From Halorubrum saccharovorum DSM 1137 (lineage in GTDB: Archaea > Halobacteriota > Halobacteria > Halobacteriales > Haloferacaceae), in NCBI RefSeq assembly GCF_000337915.1, contig NZ_AOJE01000025.1:1010-41998 (forward strand): a stretch of 40,989 bases of DNA, read 5' to 3'. Shown piece after piece: positions 5,472 through 20,259 of this stretch. Under the pieces are notes generated by a model, which saw nothing but the letters and a program-made list of their open reading frames with translations, did no database searches and was not told where the DNA came from. Each line of letters starts with the position of its first letter. Position 1 is the stretch's first letter. The translations under genes and the position numbers were made by a program.

Positions 5472-6528
5472 TATAGTAGCCGATAGAATTTTTTACTCAG
5501 AAAATGAGGTTGCCTAGAATGGATCACCTCAACGAGATCTCCGTCGAAGAACTCCAAGAGGCGCTTGACAATGTTGACGGAAACAAGCCGACACAACGGT
5601 TGTTAGCCGCGATCGCGTACAAAAATGGCGTCACGCAAACCGAACTTGCCGAGTGGTACGATACAGAACGAAAAACGATCTACAACTGGCTCAAGCGGTT
5701 CGATACGGACGACCCACTTGAACAGACCGTTTCTGATGCTCACCGATCGGGACGAAAGCGAAAGCTTTCAGAAAAACAGCAACAAGCGTTTGAGCAAACA
5801 GTTCACGAATCGCCCCAAGAGAGCGGTATTGACGCACCGGCGTGGACGCCGGCGCTCGCACAAGAATACCTTCAAGAAACGTACGGCGTCGAGTACTCAG
5901 TCCCGAGTTGTCGGCGGTTGTTGACAGAGGCGGGGTTGAGTTTTCAAAAACCACGCCGTTCAACCGCTGAATCCGACGAAAACGAGCAAGATGAGTTCTA
6001 CGACGAGATCAGAGAAAGTGGCGGGAAATGGATGCCACAGTAGTGTGTATCGATCAAACCAGGAAATCTGTCCAAGTGGAGCCGCGTGCTGCGTGGTTTC
6101 CGCGCGACACGCGGCCTTCTGTCGAACTTTCAGGCCGACGGGACTGGACGTGCCTGCTGGGCGCGATCACCGAGAACGGTGATCGCTTTTTTCTCGATTT
6201 ACAGAGTACATCACCGCCGCTCACGCAAAACAGTTCATTTTAGCACTATGTGGTGAATTCGAAGATGATCTAATTGTTGTCCTCGATGAGCACCGTACTT
6301 ACAGGCAACGGCCGTCACGGACTTGGCAGCCCGTGACGACCTCGCGTTTGTGACGCTCCCCTCGTACTCGCCGGAGTTGAATCCGATCCAGAAATGATGG
6401 AGACAGCTTCAAGCAGCTCTTAGCAACCAGTTCTTCGACTCGCTCGACGAGCTTACAACGGCAATCGATATCGCTCCTGATCAACTCTCGGTACTAAATA
6501 TGAGTAACTATTTCTAACGTCTACTATA
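5472..6528 (+). mobile_element. IS630-family insertion sequence, decayed
   Basis: The left end TATAGTAGCCGATAGAA (from 5472) and the right end, read inward from 6528 as TATAGTAGACGTTAGAA, form an inverted repeat with two mismatches in 17. Each starts with TA, the IS630-family target dinucleotide. The total length of about 1.06 kb is normal for the family. The single transposase gene inside is broken. Confidence 0.7.
5519..6517 (+). pseudogene. IS630-family transposase pseudogene
   Basis: The N-terminal part (MDHLNEISVEELQEALDNVD, KPTQRLLAAIAYKNGVTQTE) has a helix-turn-helix (TQTELAEWYDTERKTIYNWL) and the intact frame ends at WMPQ (6043). The catalytic half continues in other frames: DATVVCIDQTRKSVQVEPRA (first Asp), LIVVLDEHRTY (second Asp) and VTLPSYSPELNPIQK followed by a stop where an acidic residue and WRQLQ would be expected. 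It ends SVLNMSNYF at 6517. There are at least three frame breaks plus a stop, so it is non-functional. The ATG at 5519 fits the family start better than the in-frame ATG at 5504. Confidence 0.8.
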
Positions 6529-6697
6529 CTTCAATCGCTCAGTGTGACGTCCGATCTCGCTCCACAAACGACAAGTCGATTTACGTAGTACGTTCGCTGA
6601 GGCGGTCGAATTCCGGCATAGACACTCAGAAATCGTCCGTCTCATCCTCTAACTGAACGCGACCCCATAATCGCCGATAGATTATTTAGGTACCATC

Positions 6698-7066
6698 GGC
6701 TCTGTTGAAATCCTCAACAGGGGACATATTCTGACCCGGTTGCGGTCAATACAGGTAGTTCAGCGTCCGTAGAAGAGATACGACAATACGAGAAACCCTG
6801 CTATCGGTCCTGCAACAAATCCACTCAATCCCCCGATTCGGCCACCAACAGACCCGCCAATAGCAGCCAGAATAAACCCGATAACGACACTACCAAGGAT
6901 AAGAAAGGCTCCTGTCTGCCATTCCTCTAATATATCAACCCCGCCCTTATTGGACATATTTCACACATGAAATCCCTTTCATTAATAATTTGGTGTCTAT
7001 CTGCACTCTTCAGCGACCGGCTGTTTCAGGCAAGACTATATCTGAAGAATAGATTTCAACAGAGCC
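6698..7066. mobile_element. 369-bp mini-element with IS6-type ends, perfect 8-bp duplication
   Basis: The left end GGCTCTGTTGAAATC (6698-6712) is repeated inverted at the right end (7052-7066), 15 of 15 bases. The flanks are GTACCATC at 6690-6697 and GTACCATC at 7067-7074, a perfect 8-bp target duplication, the size made by IS6-family transposition. No transposase is inside; the only gene is a 65-codon membrane-protein gene on the minus strand. About 35 bases of the left end are also similar to the left end of the unit at 15863. The insertion is recent, judging by the perfect repeats, and lies 290 bases upstream of the Doc-family gene. Confidence 0.85.
6760..6957 (-). CDS. 65-residue glycine-zipper membrane protein carried by mini-element
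   Basis: The protein starts MSNKGGVDILEEWQTG and then has two hydrophobic segments: AFLILGSVVIGFILAAIGG, a glycine-rich turn (SVGGRIGGLSG), and FVAGPIAGFLVLSYLFYGR. Small-xxx-small spacing of Gly and Ala suggests tight helix packing or oligomerisation. It fills most of the 369-bp element and is the only frame there with coding character. I do not know the family. A role in helping the element persist, such as a toxin-like membrane peptide, is speculation. Confidence 0.55.
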   Translation of the reverse strand: MSNKGGVDILEEWQTGAFLILGSVVIGFILAAIGGSVGGRIGGLSGFVAGPIAGFLVLSYLFYGR

Positions 7067-7329
7067 GTACCATCCGATGGTTCACTCGAAATCACCAGAC
7101 AGGAGCGACTCCTGTGATGTGGCATTACGAACTTGATCCGCGGGAAGGTAGGCCTCTCTATAAGACGTCTACGCTGTCCTGTGTTTAGAAACGTACTGCA
7201 GCGACACGGGCGCGACGGGCGCTACTTCGACTGTCGAGCGACTAGACCTTTCAGGCGTGAGACGGTCGAAATCGGCGTCCTGAAAAAAGCGATTTCTGAC
7301 ATCACTCTCCCGTCTCATCATAGCAACAT

Positions 7330-7343
7330 CTACACTGGTGTAG
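7330..7343. promoter_or_regulatory. Inverted repeat CTACACTGGTGTAG before the Doc gene
   Basis: Six-base arms (CTACAC/GTGTAG) are separated by TG and end 17 bases before the ATG at 7361. The position suits an operator for self-regulation, as is common in toxin-antitoxin pairs. This is inferred from position and symmetry only. Confidence 0.35.
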
Positions 7344-7360
7344 TATCGAGATTGGAGCGA

Positions 7361-7849
7361 ATGGCCGACTCGTTGTGGTACCCGTCCGTCGAAGACGTCG
7401 TCACCATCCACGACGACGTCGTCGCGGAGTACCCCGATACTCCCGCCGGTGTTCGGAACCGTGGTGACATCGAGTTCGCACTGAACTACATCGAAGAGGG
7501 GAACTTCGGCTCAGCGCCGGAAACCGTCCACCAGAAGGCGTATCATCTTCTGCGGCTCCTCGTCGCTAATCACCCTTTCGTCGATGCGAACAAACGTACC
7601 GCGCTCAACGTGACGGTCGTCTTCTACTTCCTCAACGGGTATCGGTTCGAGTACGACAGCGAAGTGAGGACGATACTGAAAGCGTTCGGCACCGACGAAG
7701 CGGCCGTCGATGAGGAAGAAACCGCCGAGTATCTGCGATCCCACACCGAAGAGTTGGATCTGGCCGGTGAGATCGAAGCGTGGCGAGACGAACTCGTCCG
7801 GTACGGGCTATCGGAGTTGACAGGCGATTCGTCGGACCCGAACGATTAA
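7361..7849 (+). CDS. doc: Doc/Fic-family toxin
   Basis: This 162-residue protein carries the Fic-fold core HPFVDANKRTAL (residues 71-82), the Doc version HxFxDANKRT of the HPFx(D/G)xNGR/KRT motif. Doc-type proteins modify elongation factor Tu by phosphorylation; in archaea the target would be inferred to be aEF1A or another nucleotide-binding protein. The region before the motif (GDIEFALNYIEEGNFGSAPE) corresponds to the usual Doc N-terminus with RG/GxxEFAL. The start at 7361 (MADSLWYPSVEDVV) matches the family length; the frame is open further upstream but is not protein-like. A 46-codon gene follows after 25 bases. No antitoxin lies upstream, where a mini-element has inserted. Confidence 0.8.
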   Translation: MADSLWYPSVEDVVTIHDDVVAEYPDTPAGVRNRGDIEFALNYIEEGNFGSAPETVHQKAYHLLRLLVANHPFVDANKRTALNVTVVFYFLNGYRFEYDSEVRTILKAFGTDEAAVDEEETAEYLRSHTEELDLAGEIEAWRDELVRYGLSELTGDSSDPND

Positions 7850-9074: not shown

Positions 9075-10082
9075 ATGACCCGACCCCGAGAGGCAATTAG
9101 CACCTACTTGGATGCGAGGCGATCCGAGGTCGCAGAATCAACTATCACCAGTCACAAATCTCGGCTCAGTCAGTTCCGTAGATGGTGTGAACAACAAGAC
9201 GACCTCGAAATAATGGCCGATCTGTCGCCGTTAGATCTGACGCAGTATCGGTCGTGGCGACGGGAAGATGGCGATCTCTCACCTGCCAGTGAAAAGACGC
9301 AGATGGATACCCTGCGGGTATTCATCAGGTGGTGCGAGAAAATGCAAATTGTCGAGGAGAATCTGTCTAATGCCGTCGAAAGCCCCACGCTATCCAGTGA
9401 CGAAAATAGCCGAGACGAGTACGTATCGGAAGATGAAGCCGAGATTATCCTTGATCACCTTGATCGGTTTGAGTACGCATCTCAGGATCACGTCGTCACT
9501 ACACTGCTCTGGACCACTGGTCTGCGCACCTGCTCGATTCGGTCACTGGATCTTGGTGACGTTGATATTGACGAGGAGCTGCTGGAGTTACGGCACCGGC
9601 CAGACAGAGGTACTACACTGAAGAATCAGTATGCGTCGGAGAGAATGGTGGCGATTAAACCGACGACTGCGGCCATCCTCGAAGATTACATCGAGCATAC
9701 ACGTGTGGATCAGTCTGATGAGTTTGATCGGGATCCGTTGATCACGACGACGGTGAATGGGAGAGTTGGGTCATCTGTAATTCGGAAGCACAGTTACGGT
9801 CTTACTCGGCCCTGCGAACAGGGGTTGGAGTGTCCTCACGAACGTGACCCTGAGAGTTGCGACGCCGCTCAAAATAGATCAGAGGCGTATGGGTGTCCGT
9901 CGAGTAAAAGCCCTCACACGTGGCGTCGGGGGCATATTACGCATCTTTTGTCGAACGATGTGCCGCCGGAAATCGTGTCTGGTCGGGCCGATGTCACTCC
10001 CGAGGTTATCGAGGATCACTACGATAGCCGCTCGCTCCGGACACGGGTCGAACAGAGAAGGGGGTATCTCGATAATATCTGA
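9075..10082 (+). CDS. Tyrosine recombinase / haloarchaeal integrase
   Basis: This 335-residue integrase is complete. Residues 1-100 form the SAM-like DNA-binding domain (TSHKSRLSQFRRWCEQ). The catalytic domain shows Arg151 (TTGLRTCSIRSLDL), a probable Lys183, the HxxR motif at 281-284 (SPHTWRRGHITHLL), Gly-Arg at 303-304 where His/Lys-containing motifs usually lie, and the nucleophile Tyr316 (IEDHYDSRS). Between the boxes lies a Cys-containing loop (CEQGLECPH...C...C, about 247-274), typical of haloarchaeal integrases and possibly zinc-binding. It would insert or excise an element at an att site, often a tRNA 3' end, but no tRNA is in the window. Whether it serves the element to its right or is a relic of another is unknown. 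Confidence 0.85.
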   Translation: MTRPREAISTYLDARRSEVAESTITSHKSRLSQFRRWCEQQDDLEIMADLSPLDLTQYRSWRREDGDLSPASEKTQMDTLRVFIRWCEKMQIVEENLSNAVESPTLSSDENSRDEYVSEDEAEIILDHLDRFEYASQDHVVTTLLWTTGLRTCSIRSLDLGDVDIDEELLELRHRPDRGTTLKNQYASERMVAIKPTTAAILEDYIEHTRVDQSDEFDRDPLITTTVNGRVGSSVIRKHSYGLTRPCEQGLECPHERDPESCDAAQNRSEAYGCPSSKSPHTWRRGHITHLLSNDVPPEIVSGRADVTPEVIEDHYDSRSLRTRVEQRRGYLDNI

Positions 10083-10199: not shown

Positions 10200-10802
10200 T
10201 CAACTGTCCAACAATCCGGAATTGCTGAGAGTATCTAATAGATTATTTACACTTGATAACGCAGCATCGTATGTCTTAGCACCATTTACCATGTATTTTC
10301 CACTCGCAAAGAGTAGGATAGTAGTTCCTTCTGTCGGTCGGTAAATGACTCCAGGGAACTGCTCTGGTTCGTATTCAGTATTCTCCATACCTAAGCCTAT
10401 AATAGCCTGGTTGAGTTCTAATGTCAGATCAAGATCTCCCTGGATGACGATATTTTGAACCTCTAAATTAGTAGTCGACGGAAGCTTACTTGGAGCGATT
10501 GGCTGGAGTTCATTGATGAGATGGCTGCCCAGATCGTACAAATTTTTCTTAGATTTGCAGCCAACCAAGCTTGCCATCCCATTTGTGGGGATGAGGACCG
10601 TACCTTGCAAATTGCTTGGTTTGTAGACTAAGAATGGAAATGATTCGGGTTCATATTCACTTGAGCCAAGATAATTTCTAAGCTCTAACAGATCGAATTC
10701 CTGCTCAAGATCAATTGTAGCAACTATATTTTCGACCTTTAATCCATTCTCTGCGAGATCCTCCTCTGAAATATGTTCATCAATCTCATCTATCCGTGGC
10801 AT
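10200..10802 (-). CDS. Divergent TATA-binding-protein homologue in restriction operon
   Basis: The 200-residue protein has the two imperfect repeats of the TBP saddle. Repeat 1 (about 20-105) begins LKVENIVATIDLEQEFDLLE and has EYEPESFPFLVY (49-60). Repeat 2 (about 110-195) has EYEPEQFPGVIYRP (143-156) and ILLFASGKYMVNGAKTYDAA. In TBP two Phe per repeat kink the DNA. Repeat 2 keeps both (F149, F165). Repeat 1 keeps F55, but the second position reads VLIPTNG instead of the usual LIFxSGK. An acidic 20-residue extension precedes the core. The gene starts 6 bases after the stop of the restriction-methylase gene, so both are probably on one mRNA, and it is equally AT-rich. It may be a specialised promoter factor for the operon or a DNA-bending subunit of the enzyme. 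The family is confident; the role is inferred. Confidence 0.8.
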   Translation of the reverse strand: MPRIDEIDEHISEEDLAENGLKVENIVATIDLEQEFDLLELRNYLGSSEYEPESFPFLVYKPSNLQGTVLIPTNGMASLVGCKSKKNLYDLGSHLINELQPIAPSKLPSTTNLEVQNIVIQGDLDLTLELNQAIIGLGMENTEYEPEQFPGVIYRPTEGTTILLFASGKYMVNGAKTYDAALSSVNNLLDTLSNSGLLDS

Positions 10803-10808
10803 AGGGTA

Positions 10809-13800
10809 TTAGAATACCTCCAGGTAACTTTCTATTACGTCTTTAGTTTCCTCTGAAACTTCAAATAGTCTGTATACTTCGTTGTCAAGTTCAGATTCAA
10901 GTTCTGGTATATCTTTCTTATTTGCGGTATCTCTGTCTGATTTGAGAGCATCCAGAAGTTGTCTTACACCGTCTCCGTCAGATGGCACGGGGATGCTTAT
11001 TGTTTCCCCGCTTTCGAAATGACGATTATTGACCACTGATTGAACGTATTCTGCCCGTAATTTGCTTTCATTTTCGTCTCCTTTATCGATGAGAGCGGAT
11101 GTGATTTCGTCAGTACGTCCAGCTGTTACTGCGTACCGACCATTCTCAATTTCTTCAACTTGACTTTCTACTGGTTTGCGAGTTGTTTTCCATTTGTAAG
11201 TTAGGTAATCAACATCTCCTTGGTATTCCTTGACATACTCATTTGGAAATTCTTCTATTCGTTTTTGAAGAGATTCAAGATCCACTATTTTTTCAACAAT
11301 TGACGCAATATCGCCGGTATGATTCGGCAACGGTATTTGATTGACATACTGTGATTTGTATCGGTATCGGAATGGTTTGCCACGTAGTGGAGGGCTTGTT
11401 TGTTTGATTGAAAATTCTGCAATAGAAGAGTTGAGCAGTCCTAACAGTTCTTTTTCCGAGTAGGGATTAGAGTCGCTGAACGTTAGAACATACACCGTGT
11501 TTTTGAAACAATCTAAGCCATTTGTGAATGAGAAATGGTTTTCAGTAGCCATATCTGGTGTTGCAATTTTGAAATCACCCTCAAACATTGACTTAGGATG
11601 GGATCCATGATATTCATAGATGCCTTTATTCCCTTTCTTTACACAGTATCTATCCTTCAGATCTTCCTCGTGCGAGTCTAAATGGGCTTTTATATTTGGA
11701 TATTGGTCTATATCGACGAGGTCTCCCTGTTCATTATATGGGTATATTACAAGTTCGTCTTCCCACTCAACGGTCCATCTCCTAACATTTTTTCCACGGA
11801 CTATCGGCCATAAGAGTGAATCTTCTAACTCTTTCTCTTCAGCATATTCTGGAGAGACAATAAACGATTCGTCACCCCCCGAAGCAACCCCTTCACGAAC
11901 TCCGAGAGAAATATCATCAATCACATGCCGAGATTTGTTTCTAATTTGTTGCTCGGCAGTTCGAACCGGTTCTGGGGTGAATCGCCAGTTATCTTCGTTG
12001 AGTTCAGAGAGAGGGTATGTAGAAACCTCGATCGAGTCTGTAAGTATGTCATCTTGACCCAGATAGTTGCGAATGTCATCAAATATGTCTTCATCAGCTT
12101 CGTGTACTTTTGCATATGGAACCAATTTACGGGACTTGTCTCGATCAATCAACAGGATAGATGCAAAATTAGTCGCATCCGAGAATATGTCGACATCCCC
12201 AAATTCGATATACTGTTCTAATGAATATTCTGTTGAGATGAGACGGCGTATCTCTTTGCCGTAACTGGATCTGGTGAACTTATTTGAGGTAATATATCCT
12301 AATGTCCCATCCTCTTTTAACCACTCTAAGCCTCTTTCTAAGAACAGTACATAGAGGTCAAATCGACCGAAAGCAGAGGTATAGAGCTGTTTGTACCAAT
12401 CCTGCTTAGAATCTTTTATATTTTTAATATTCACATATGGAGGATTCCCCACAACATAATCGTATTCCATATAATTTTTCACGACGAGTGCAAGAATACT
12501 GTCTTCAAAGATTTTGAATAGACGTCCGTCACCGTGATCCTCTCGTAAGTACTGCATCGTCTCTAAGACATCATCAACATACGGTTCAAAGAACTCCTCT
12601 GCTTCCTCATACTCTTGGTTAGTATAACGATTAATGCCCGTTGTGAGACCTCCCTGATATTCCCACATATCTTCTTGCATATGATATTTCACGACATCAA
12701 GCACACCCTGTAATGCTGCAAAGTATTCTCCAAAGCTCCGAACCCCTGCATTCACTTTTACAGTGTCATACTTTGGCATTCGGACTCTTTGGACGAGAAA
12801 GCCATCTTCTACCTCTGAATCAAGCACTTGATCTTCATCGACTTCAATTGGGAGAGGGATTGGAATCTTAACATCCTGATTATCCTCCGTTACGCTTTCT
12901 AAAGTCATTTGAGTTTGTCCATCATCACCGAGATCAATACCCGTCAGTTTACGCTCGTTACGGAGCGAGTCGGTGCGGAAGATGGGAAGCCGACGAATTG
13001 TGAAATCTTCATTATCTCGTTTGGCCTCCCGGTACTCAGGAAGAATCGTGACCATGAATCGGATCTGAGCCATCAACACCGCGAACGGGTGAACGTCCAA
13101 CCCAACGATATGTGGTGTCGTACACAGGTCGGTGAGATGTTCCGACCAGTCCGGATCGTCGTCGTACCGGCGCACGTCCTCGATATATCGCTCGACGGCC
13201 TCCACGAGGAATGTCCCAGAACCACAGGAGGGATCAATAATACGCTCCTCCGAGACACCGACATCATAGTCCACTCCGTCCATGATGTACTCGATGACGG
13301 GCTGCGGCGTGTAGAACTCTCCAAGAGCCTTCCGGGTTTCTGGGTCGAAGTACCGCTGGTAGAGATTTCCAAGCGGGTCGCCCTCGATCCGGGAGAAGTC
13401 GAATTTCAACACGGCAAATGAAACGTGTGCGATAGACCGGCTGAATCGTTCTCGGGTTGCCGGACTCACGCGACTGACATCACTCCCATCTTTGGCTACG
13501 TCACGGAAGCGGTTGTACGGGTTGTCGTGCTGGCTGGCCGTCTGTTCACCGTACCCATCCGTCCACCAAACAAAAATGTCATCCTCAAAGAGACTCTGGA
13601 CAAGCTGATTCCGCATGTCTTCAATCATTCCGTTAGCCGCGACAGGATAGGCGTCAAGATCGATATTACCGCTGAATCCGCCGAGTTCATCGAAGTACCG
13701 TCGAAGCCCTTTCTCTGTGGGGAAGAAGTCATGATCATCAGTTGCCTTCGCGAGCAAGAGTCGGGACAGAAGCGCGTGACCGGATTCCAGACAGAACATG

Positions 13801-14540
13801 AAGTCACGCAGTGACTGCTTTCCGTCGATGAAGGGTTCCCACGAATCGGGTGTGTCGTCGGGGACGCTTGCGTAGCTCGCCTCCCAAAAGTCGTAGGCCC
13901 CCTTGACGAACTTTGCCTCCTGCTCGTCCCGGAGTTCTACGAGGAGATCCATCATCGCAGTAACGAGATTTGCGAACGGGCTGTCCTCCTCTAAGCGGAA
14001 CGTTTCGAAGAAGTGTTCCCGACCGAGTTGGCCGTCAAGTTCGACTTCATCAAGGTCATCAAGGAACGTTCCTACGCTTTCAGGGTTTGTGATGTCCCAC
14101 GCTGGCTTCTGTAGGGCAGCGTAGAGGTCATTTGCATCGCTCTGTGTTGCATTTTCAAGCGAGATAGCAAGAAGCTGGGAACGCCCGTCGCGGCGGTACA
14201 GACGTAGTTCCTCGCCATTCGTGAGAACACCGTAGTCAGCTTTTAGCTCATCGACGTAGTGGAACAGCTGATCTTCGTGGGGGCCGAGATCGCGTCCGGT
14301 CGTTTTGAACTCGTAAACAGTGGTCACCGATTCGTTGCTATCCAGCGTAACGTAGTCGGGGCGTCGATTGTCGGGGAGTGTCCACTCGCTTCGGAGGTCG
14401 TGTCCGGTGCCTTTGTATCCGAGATGGGTATAGAAGTTCTCGTTGAGAAATGCGTTCTCGACGTCTTTCTCCGTCATATCGGCATCGAGCCGAGAAGCGA
14501 TTCCGTGGAGGGAATCGAGAATCGCGGACGTGTCGGACAT
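10809..14540 (-). CDS. Fused restriction endonuclease / adenine-N6 methyltransferase (type IIG-like)
   Basis: This 1243-residue protein combines the parts of a one-chain restriction-modification enzyme. Residues about 20-120 look like a PD-(D/E)xK nuclease (RRPDYV with D62, VYEFKT with E77 and K79, then QLFHYVDELKADYGVLTNG), as in HsdR and Eco57I-type N-termini. The methyltransferase has motif I DPSCGSGTF (436-444) and motif IV NPPY (699-702), the adenine-N6 signature. Residues about 860-1100 contain WPIVRGKNVRRW, typical of TaqI-like target-recognition domains. It presumably cuts foreign DNA and protects its own. PglX of BREX or a DISARM methylase are alternatives, but neither carries this N-terminal nuclease as a rule and no other BREX or DISARM gene is present. 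Base composition changes from GC-rich (5' half) to AT-rich (3' half) near 12950. Confidence 0.85.
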   Translation of the reverse strand: MSDTSAILDSLHGIASRLDADMTEKDVENAFLNENFYTHLGYKGTGHDLRSEWTLPDNRRPDYVTLDSNESVTTVYEFKTTGRDLGPHEDQLFHYVDELKADYGVLTNGEELRLYRRDGRSQLLAISLENATQSDANDLYAALQKPAWDITNPESVGTFLDDLDEVELDGQLGREHFFETFRLEEDSPFANLVTAMMDLLVELRDEQEAKFVKGAYDFWEASYASVPDDTPDSWEPFIDGKQSLRDFMFCLESGHALLSRLLLAKATDDHDFFPTEKGLRRYFDELGGFSGNIDLDAYPVAANGMIEDMRNQLVQSLFEDDIFVWWTDGYGEQTASQHDNPYNRFRDVAKDGSDVSRVSPATRERFSRSIAHVSFAVLKFDFSRIEGDPLGNLYQRYFDPETRKALGEFYTPQPVIEYIMDGVDYDVGVSEERIIDPSCGSGTFLVEAVERYIEDVRRYDDDPDWSEHLTDLCTTPHIVGLDVHPFAVLMAQIRFMVTILPEYREAKRDNEDFTIRRLPIFRTDSLRNERKLTGIDLGDDGQTQMTLESVTEDNQDVKIPIPLPIEVDEDQVLDSEVEDGFLVQRVRMPKYDTVKVNAGVRSFGEYFAALQGVLDVVKYHMQEDMWEYQGGLTTGINRYTNQEYEEAEEFFEPYVDDVLETMQYLREDHGDGRLFKIFEDSILALVVKNYMEYDYVVGNPPYVNIKNIKDSKQDWYKQLYTSAFGRFDLYVLFLERGLEWLKEDGTLGYITSNKFTRSSYGKEIRRLISTEYSLEQYIEFGDVDIFSDATNFASILLIDRDKSRKLVPYAKVHEADEDIFDDIRNYLGQDDILTDSIEVSTYPLSELNEDNWRFTPEPVRTAEQQIRNKSRHVIDDISLGVREGVASGGDESFIVSPEYAEEKELEDSLLWPIVRGKNVRRWTVEWEDELVIYPYNEQGDLVDIDQYPNIKAHLDSHEEDLKDRYCVKKGNKGIYEYHGSHPKSMFEGDFKIATPDMATENHFSFTNGLDCFKNTVYVLTFSDSNPYSEKELLGLLNSSIAEFSIKQTSPPLRGKPFRYRYKSQYVNQIPLPNHTGDIASIVEKIVDLESLQKRIEEFPNEYVKEYQGDVDYLTYKWKTTRKPVESQVEEIENGRYAVTAGRTDEITSALIDKGDENESKLRAEYVQSVVNNRHFESGETISIPVPSDGDGVRQLLDALKSDRDTANKKDIPELESELDNEVYRLFEVSEETKDVIESYLEVF

Positions 14541-14654
14541 AGCAAGTCAGAGACAGCCACTCATTAAAAGGTTGTATCAAATTCCCTCAGTAGTTTCGAG
14601 GTACTGAAATTCCACGAGAAACAGAGGGGTCGTCTCGGTTGATCTTAGTGATTG

Positions 14655-19218: not shown

Positions 19219-20259
19219 CTAACGCCGGTACTGCTCCCAGTATCCTCTTTTCGGAGTATCGAACCGCAGTTCTTCCACCGTATCAATACAATGGTTGAAT
19301 CCCCACATTGCGTTCGCGGACTTTTGTTGATCGAGAATAATCTCCTTACCCTTTTCTCGATACCATCTCTGTTCGCTTGGAGTCGGTACCTTCACCGCGA
19401 TCTCTCGGGCCTTCTCTATTTCATCCATTTCGGCGTGAGGACCGCGAACATATTCCTTATTCGGGAAAGCATCACACATCTTCTCAATCATGACTCTGAG
19501 CAGATCCCCGTATTCAACGGGCGCAAATACCTCTCGGAAAGACGTTAATCCTTGTAGGAGATTGAACTTCCAGATTTCCGTCCGTTCTGAAACCTCTATC
19601 CGGGGTATGTCCCCATCCCCGTGTAGAGGCTCGATGTCGAAGGTAGCAGGATCAAGAAGCATCAGTAGGTGGTTGGGGCCGATTGGACAGTAAATTTCCA
19701 CTCGTTCGAAGAAATCCATCGTATTTGGATCTCGATCGGGATGTACATCGCGCCACCAGACGACAGGGAAGTCAGATGTGAAGAAGGGCAGCTCGGTATG
19801 GTTCTCGATTACACGCCAACCCATCATCATCAGGTTCTCAAAAGCGTGTTTCGAGTCGTGATGCACCACATCTTCCCAGTCATAATTTTGCCCTCCAAGA
19901 GCTTCGTTAAGGGTGCCCATGGTTTGATGGAACATTTTTGATCGTGGTGTTCGATCGCGCTGAAAAAGAAGGAACTCAGAGATCCAGATTAACTCGCTCT
20001 CAGAAAGAGAATCGCCAGAGTCCAACGATTTAAGCGCATTACGCATGTCTTCTTCCGCATCGGTTGTTTGCGGGTTTTCGAATAATTCGTCGGCGAACCC
20101 TGTTGCTGATGCCGCCTTCTGGATTGGATAGTAATCCTTGGGGTGATAGTAGTCGCCACCGCCGTGCTTTTCTACGAGTGAGTACCGGGAAATTCGGTCA
20201 TCATTTTCGGGGGCGAATAGCCTCAGATACGCTTGGGGGACGTAGTGTTCATTCTTCAT
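19219..20259 (-). CDS. DUF4238 family protein
   Basis: This 346-residue protein opens with the family signature HYVPQAYLRLFA (5-16) and has the second conserved block LPFFTSDFPVVWW near the middle, followed by IYCPIGPNHLLMLLDPATFD. These are the N-terminal HYVPQ-YL-NF and F-TSD-PV motifs of DUF4238. The family is widespread in bacteria and archaea, often next to mobile elements; its biochemical activity is not established to my knowledge. The Asp/His-rich conserved blocks would fit a metal-dependent enzyme (inference). It is divergent from the winged-helix gene at 20337. Confidence 0.75.
   Translation of the reverse strand: MKNEHYVPQAYLRLFAPENDDRISRYSLVEKHGGGDYYHPKDYYPIQKAASATGFADELFENPQTTDAEEDMRNALKSLDSGDSLSESELIWISEFLLFQRDRTPRSKMFHQTMGTLNEALGGQNYDWEDVVHHDSKHAFENLMMMGWRVIENHTELPFFTSDFPVVWWRDVHPDRDPNTMDFFERVEIYCPIGPNHLLMLLDPATFDIEPLHGDGDIPRIEVSERTEIWKFNLLQGLTSFREVFAPVEYGDLLRVMIEKMCDAFPNKEYVRGPHAEMDEIEKAREIAVKVPTPSEQRWYREKGKEIILDQQKSANAMWGFNHCIDTVEELRFDTPKRGYWEQYRR

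Follow-up and report, generated by a model that had tools for sequence, protein, structure and literature searches.

What is a homologue of the TATA-binding protein (TBP), in its ordinary role a general switch for transcription, doing directly behind a restriction gene? The question is raised by the window analysed here, the whole stretch of 40,989 nucleotides from Halorubrum saccharovorum, in which the two genes lie on the minus strand with 6 bases between the stop codon of the enzyme and the ATG of the TBP.

The TBP and the enzyme that precedes it

The features of the locus on which the analysis draws are the following.

10200..10802, minus strand: TBP homologue, 200 aa, FPFF type (Pfam, PDB sequence matches, predicted fold)
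10743..10802, minus strand: N-terminal extension of the TBP, MPRIDEIDEHISEEDLAENG
10482..10742, minus strand: TBP repeat 1; central Asn and Val and first Phe kept, second Phe replaced
10587..10589, minus strand: codon of Pro72, at the second intercalating Phe position of repeat 1 (VLIPTNG)
10224..10466, minus strand: TBP repeat 2; both Phe kept
10353..10376, minus strand: EYEPEQFP stirrup, putative contact site for TFB, as judged from homology with E284/E286 of human TBP
10809..14540, minus strand: type IIG restriction enzyme-methyltransferase, 1243 aa
14304..14375, minus strand: probable PD...(E)xK-like nuclease motif, RPDYVTLDSNESVTTVYEFK (pattern; weak, sub-threshold HSDR_N_2 match)
13215..13235, minus strand: methyltransferase motif I, DPSCGSG (motif pattern)
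12435..12446, minus strand: methyltransferase motif IV, NPPY (motif pattern)
11328..11807, minus strand: TaqI-like C-terminal specificity domain, TaqI_C (Pfam)
14562..14574, minus strand: TATA-like element CAACCTTTTAATG ahead of the IIG start; TBP-less orthologues have it too
10809..12860, minus strand: C-terminal half of the IIG gene, of low G+C (39-43%)
9075..10082, plus strand: tyrosine recombinase, convergently oriented to the TBP gene; a sign that the region is mobile

The protein is a TBP homologue by fold. Pfam recognised both TBP repeats (123 bits), the AlphaFold model had a pLDDT of 96.4 with the two-repeat TBP saddle, and the top PDB matches to that model were TBPs, with Z about 20 and an rmsd of about 2 Å over about 178 residues. 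Alignment against four-Phe TBPs gave F,P,F,F at the intercalating positions, so that the protein is a non-canonical TBP; open reading frame, Pfam and alignment thus agree with the original prediction of a 200-residue, two-repeat TBP with three of the four intercalating Phe, lacking the second one of repeat 1. Its placement of the gene 6 bases behind a fused restriction-methylation gene was equally accurate. A Pfam scan of the protein returned TBP only and no helix-turn-helix domain. The N-terminal 20 residues resemble, by eye and over this short stretch, the linker that follows the winged helix in a related TBP of a BREX-5 locus, L306 (RIDELDAVISEETLRNDCG). The residue alignment shows Asn, Val and EPEQF, the contact residues, to be in place; TATA DNA binding and TFB recruitment are predicted activities of this TBP. 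The EYEPEQFP stirrup has the highest conservation of any segment across all TBPs compared. Two further TBPs are encoded in the same genome; the copy on contig C8 has no restriction gene nearby, and the copy on C21 was excluded from the neighbour check and from the count below.

The preceding enzyme scored above the Pfam cut-offs for Eco57I (109 bits), N6_Mtase and TaqI_C, and enzymes of this kind were classed by PADLOC as REase_MTase_IIG (Eco57I/TaqI-like). It combines in one chain an N6-adenine methylase, a specificity domain and a probable nuclease, the latter read from a PD..EFK pattern and the sub-threshold HSDR_N_2 match; DNA cleavage and methylation are both predicted activities. From the 6-base gap we infer one mRNA shared by the two genes. 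The TBP gene (41% G+C) is close in composition to the C-terminal half of the IIG gene, while the N-terminal half of the latter reaches 54%. At the C terminus, identity to the closest full-length homologue in the comparison drops from 0.87 to 0.47. The shared low G+C and this drop suggest that the TBP may have been brought in with a recombined 3' segment of the IIG gene.

Elsewhere in the window, a Fic/DOC family protein (7133-7849) is encoded near the recombinase and the restriction gene, and a DUF4238 protein at 19219-20259. A BREX-5-like locus of the same genome (L313; G000:C21:156306-170059) encodes two PglX proteins and a helicase, and no TBP was found there within 1.5 kb of the first-ranked PglX.

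Altered TBPs beside haloarchaeal defence systems

A profile built from four divergent TBPs was run against 392 genomes of the order; its best matches, like the ordinary TBPs, were taken together with up to 20 kb of surrounding sequence. Neighbours were scored as methylase-type defence genes with 23 reference proteins drawn from the neighbourhoods of the defence-linked TBPs (dTBPs). Haloarchaeal TBPs split into two kinds, those that keep four Phe (FFFF) and those in which the set is altered. A defence gene lay within 5 kb of 62 of the 68 non-FFFF TBPs (within 150 bp of 44 and within 50 bp of 32), whereas a methylase-type defence gene was found within 5 kb of none of the 20 FFFF TBPs, several of which are also on plasmid-sized contigs (Fisher p = 7e-15, in a test that ignores shared ancestry). 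The count of 62 is partly circular, since the reference proteins came from dTBP neighbourhoods, and three of the four profile seed proteins are included in it. Independent support for the link to defence comes from the PADLOC classes of the neighbours, from annotated plasmids and from the FFFF control. PADLOC assigned neighbours to type I HsdR/HsdS, IIG, PglX/PglZ/BrxL, the BrxHII helicase, and DrmMI-like and MADS2-like methylases, and the systems found beside altered TBPs comprise type I, several IIG families, BREX-1, BREX-5, methylase plus BrxHII helicase, and MADS-like ones. All nine annotated plasmid contexts that were opened contained methylase-type defence operons, the one of TbpC in Halobacterium NRC-1, three BREX-5 and one BREX-1 among them. 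Many altered TBPs stand at the 3' end of their operon with short gaps or overlaps (TbpC on pNRC100 of Halobacterium NRC-1 overlaps the helicase stop by 4 bp), and 12 are divergent from the operon. The suspicion that a branch of TBPs is tied to restriction-type systems was thus borne out on a far wider scale than could be seen from the window. No TBP with a dTBP-like score was detected in a small sample of 47 genomes from outside the haloarchaea.

Residue conservation and selection speak against decay of the altered TBPs. Exact Tyr-Tyr in repeat 1 (YYFF) is found in 50 of the 68; every one of these 50 retains the repeat-2 Asn, Val and Phe together with the EPEQF stirrup, and 49 retain the repeat-1 Asn; and dN/dS was 0.06-0.16 in the 11 computable pairs, drawn from the larger dTBP family, which is under purifying selection. 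In human TBP the EPE stirrup (E284/E286) contacts TFIIB and, the stirrup being kept, dTBPs probably retain TFB recruitment.

TbpC had been described as possibly nonfunctional or as having a very specialised role, in a study that found TbpC-like TBPs to be numerous (Becker et al. 2014, PMC4230888), and a tbpC knockout has been reported in Halobacterium NRC-1 (PMC2121645). The text of the former mentions neither restriction nor methylases, and the latter makes no mention of restriction. The conserved residues and the dN/dS values argue against the loss-of-function reading of TbpC in PMC4230888. TbpC-like TBPs resemble the window TBP in being divergent members of the haloarchaeal TBPs in which one repeat has lost intercalating Phe. 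However, TbpC of NRC-1 belongs to a large defence-linked clade with Tyr at both repeat-1 positions, whereas the window TBP, of FPFF type, falls outside that clade in the tree. TbpC-like TBPs, numerous and without known function in 2014 (PMC4230888), are hereby given a setting, and part of the large haloarchaeal TBP expansion is tied to antiviral defence.

Lineages, pairings and promoters

In a phylogenetic tree the window TBP grouped with a Natribaculum luteum plasmid TBP and with a TBP carrying an N-terminal winged-helix-like domain (L166), separately from the ordinary TBPs and from the TbpC clade, which lies across a 100/99 branch; the tree carried long-branch warnings and had as outgroups a few TBPs from DPANN and other non-haloarchaeal metagenome-assembled genomes, obtained from a single-sequence contig scan that yielded mostly such TBPs. 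With the same warnings, the comparison with Tbp paralogues proposed in the original prediction places the window TBP outside the ordinary chromosomal ones. A profile of this rare lineage, hereafter P-type, retrieved five members from the 392 genomes, each of them carrying Pro where repeat 1 ordinarily has its second Phe and scoring above ordinary TBPs: four scored 294-308 bits, all four having been used in the profile, and the fifth 191. Besides the window TBP with its IIG enzyme, they are the L166 protein (L166:7377-8201), tail to tail with a YYFF TBP beside type I genes; a second winged-helix TBP (L306:11047-11922) between pglX and pglZ, 5 bp before pglZ, in a BREX-5 locus whose genes were named by similarity and order; a TBP divergent from two N6_N4 methylases (L319) and preceded, at a distance of 53 bp, by a PadR-type winged-helix protein; and the Natribaculum protein, with an insertion element upstream and a methylase about 3.2 kb away. 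The winged helices, fused in L166 and L306 and 53 bp upstream in L319, point to promoter work.

With the thresholds applied, the IIG family itself occurs in 31 of 170 genomes of the taxonomic family and in 43 of the 392 of the order; full-length relatives of the window enzyme are found in many haloarchaea, nearly all without a TBP. A TBP accompanies it in three of 49 loci, namely the window, genome G113, where a 59% identical IIG is followed after 16 bp by a TBP gene of the same orientation, and genome G004, where a distant IIG has a divergent TBP about 90 bp away. The G113 TBP is YYFF and TbpC-like, although its exact position in the tree is weakly supported; the window TBP is neither, which indicates that two TBP lineages stand behind one IIG family. 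The pairing of IIG with TBP is therefore not unique to the window, but it recurs with a TBP of another lineage: the exact combination was seen in the window alone, and no close relative of its TBP was found in the 170 genomes of its own taxonomic family. On two Halorussus plasmids, a TBP-less relative of the IIG is preceded, at a distance of about 3 kb, by a TFB gene (L040:852-1841 and L041:1038-2030).

IIG orthologues with and without a TBP share a canonical TATA layout, and no TBP-specific promoter was visible by eye in this family. The methylase-helicase operons gave the same picture: the upstream DNA of an operon with a TBP (L192) and of one with a TBP remnant (L307) is identical over the 110 bp compared, and a promoter change accompanying the TBP was rejected as a candidate, none being found in that comparison. 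The remnant, of the YYFF type, lies behind the L307 helicase at about 11866 (33 aa at 64% identity; locus L277) and implies that the TBP can be lost while the operon persists. An AGTCT...AGACT inverted repeat overlaps the TATA of the methylase-BrxHII operons (L307, upstream of 4573; L192, L198, L199, L201 and L310-L312), and is present beside it with and without a TBP; the first gene of these operons encodes a 67-aa protein, AbrB-like by eye. Beyond the IIG loci, scans reaching 1.5 kb from the match found a TBP in 2 of 30 BREX-5 PglX loci and in 5 of 20 close helicase loci, and it is thus optional in every system examined. No dedicated TFB gene accompanies dTBPs; TFB homologues lie near few of them only, and a dedicated TFB partner was rejected on this ground. 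Shared promoters and an optional TBP suggest that a dTBP acts at the shared TATA, at other promoters or within an effector complex.

What a defence-linked TBP may do

We propose, at about even confidence, that the window protein is a dTBP in the sense of a dedicated transcription controller of mobile methylase-based defence operons and not an ordinary spare copy. Such a module, encoded with the operon, would bind TATA-type promoter DNA together with TFB and bend it differently, and the altered bending would let it set the timing of transcription of the defence genes, or from competing promoters, whether by activation or by repression. The kept TFB half, the winged-helix links and fusions and the position at the operon 3' end or divergent from it are the basis of this reading. 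In its favour we count the 62 of 68 against 0 of 20, the nine plasmid contexts, the PADLOC classes, the two TBP lineages behind one IIG family, the residue conservation, the dN/dS and the winged helices; against it, the like promoters with and without a TBP, the absence of the TBP from most relatives and the lack of a co-travelling TFB gene. The earlier suggestion that the TBP is the operon's own transcription factor survives as a possible reading, whereas its strong form is weakened by the like promoter layouts.

The like promoters count in favour of a rival reading, in which the dTBP is a targeting or structural subunit: as a physical component of the defence complex it would guide the methylase or nuclease to promoters or to AT-rich invader DNA. 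Tight 3' adjacency to methylase and helicase genes, sometimes with overlap, is in line with this role, as is the company of many systems whose only common need is to engage DNA. We nevertheless consider it rather unlikely, given that the TBP is optional throughout, that IIG and type I systems have specificity domains of their own, that a mere DNA adaptor could dispense with the strictly kept TFB-binding stirrup, and that the winged-helix fusions look regulatory. Among the mechanisms first put forward, a specificity subunit is the least likely, since the IIG has its own TaqI_C domain and the TBP is optional. Unlikely too, in our estimate, is a broader scheme whereby archaeal immunity recruited a general transcription factor into defence complexes, with dTBPs recognising promoter or TATA DNA on the invader and directing or licensing modification and restriction, one module serving type I, IIG, BREX and methylase-helicase systems. 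Interference with viral transcription, the dTBP competing with viral or host TBP at viral promoters as effector or helper, would suit the asymmetric saddle, in which TFB-binding residues are kept and half of the DNA-bending set is altered, and some haloviruses do encode TBPs; yet nothing links dTBPs to viral promoters and they are mostly carried with a methylase system, not alone, which makes this account improbable. Even more doubtful is simple hitchhiking, that is, a spare TBP paralogue on plasmids or genomic islands that also bear defence genes. The region is mobile, with its recombinase at 9075-10082 and its low G+C, TBP duplicates are common in haloarchaea, and the window TBP is without a close relative, so that the dN/dS values are those of the larger clade only. 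Plasmid hitchhiking is disfavoured by the FFFF control, with its several plasmid-sized contigs, and further by the carriage of the same clade with non-homologous systems and by the low dN/dS in that clade.

Returning to the proposed transcription controller, a working analogy is offered by the C proteins of bacterial restriction-modification systems, small helix-turn-helix regulators that are encoded with the restriction-modification genes and time their expression. A dTBP would likewise be a small DNA-binding regulator encoded with such genes; the window protein, however, is a TBP, and a winged helix is found in some relatives only (N-terminal and winged-helix-like in L306 and L166). The nearest precedent for dTBPs is provided by the TOTE and TALON conflict systems, whose operons likewise encode TBP-domain proteins (described in PMC12458937, which cites Aravind et al. 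2022). TALON has been reported from Bacillati, and in both systems the TBP-domain protein is combined with TPR-CSD or OB proteins and further effectors. No such partner was recognised in general Pfam scans of the genes next to the window TBP, nor among the neighbours classified in this analysis. In the open-access literature and a few preprints we found no description of haloarchaeal TBPs tied to restriction or BREX systems. If dTBPs control transcription, they would constitute an archaeal restriction-timing factor made from the basal machinery; if they target enzymes, immunity would have a novel means of locating foreign DNA.

Two minor observations concern TBPs in other arrangements. TBPs are also encoded by two viruses, Halorubrum virus HRTV-9 and Haloarcula virus HJTV-2 (MZ334505 and MZ334513 / NC_062755). 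Two methylase-helicase operons carry a pair of TBPs each (L172:2821-3369 and 6310-6858; L208:2580-3128 and 6091-6648), an FFSP one, altered in repeat 2, between methylase and helicase and a YYFF one, altered in repeat 1, after the helicase; it is conceivable that the two, with their complementary defects, function as a working pair.
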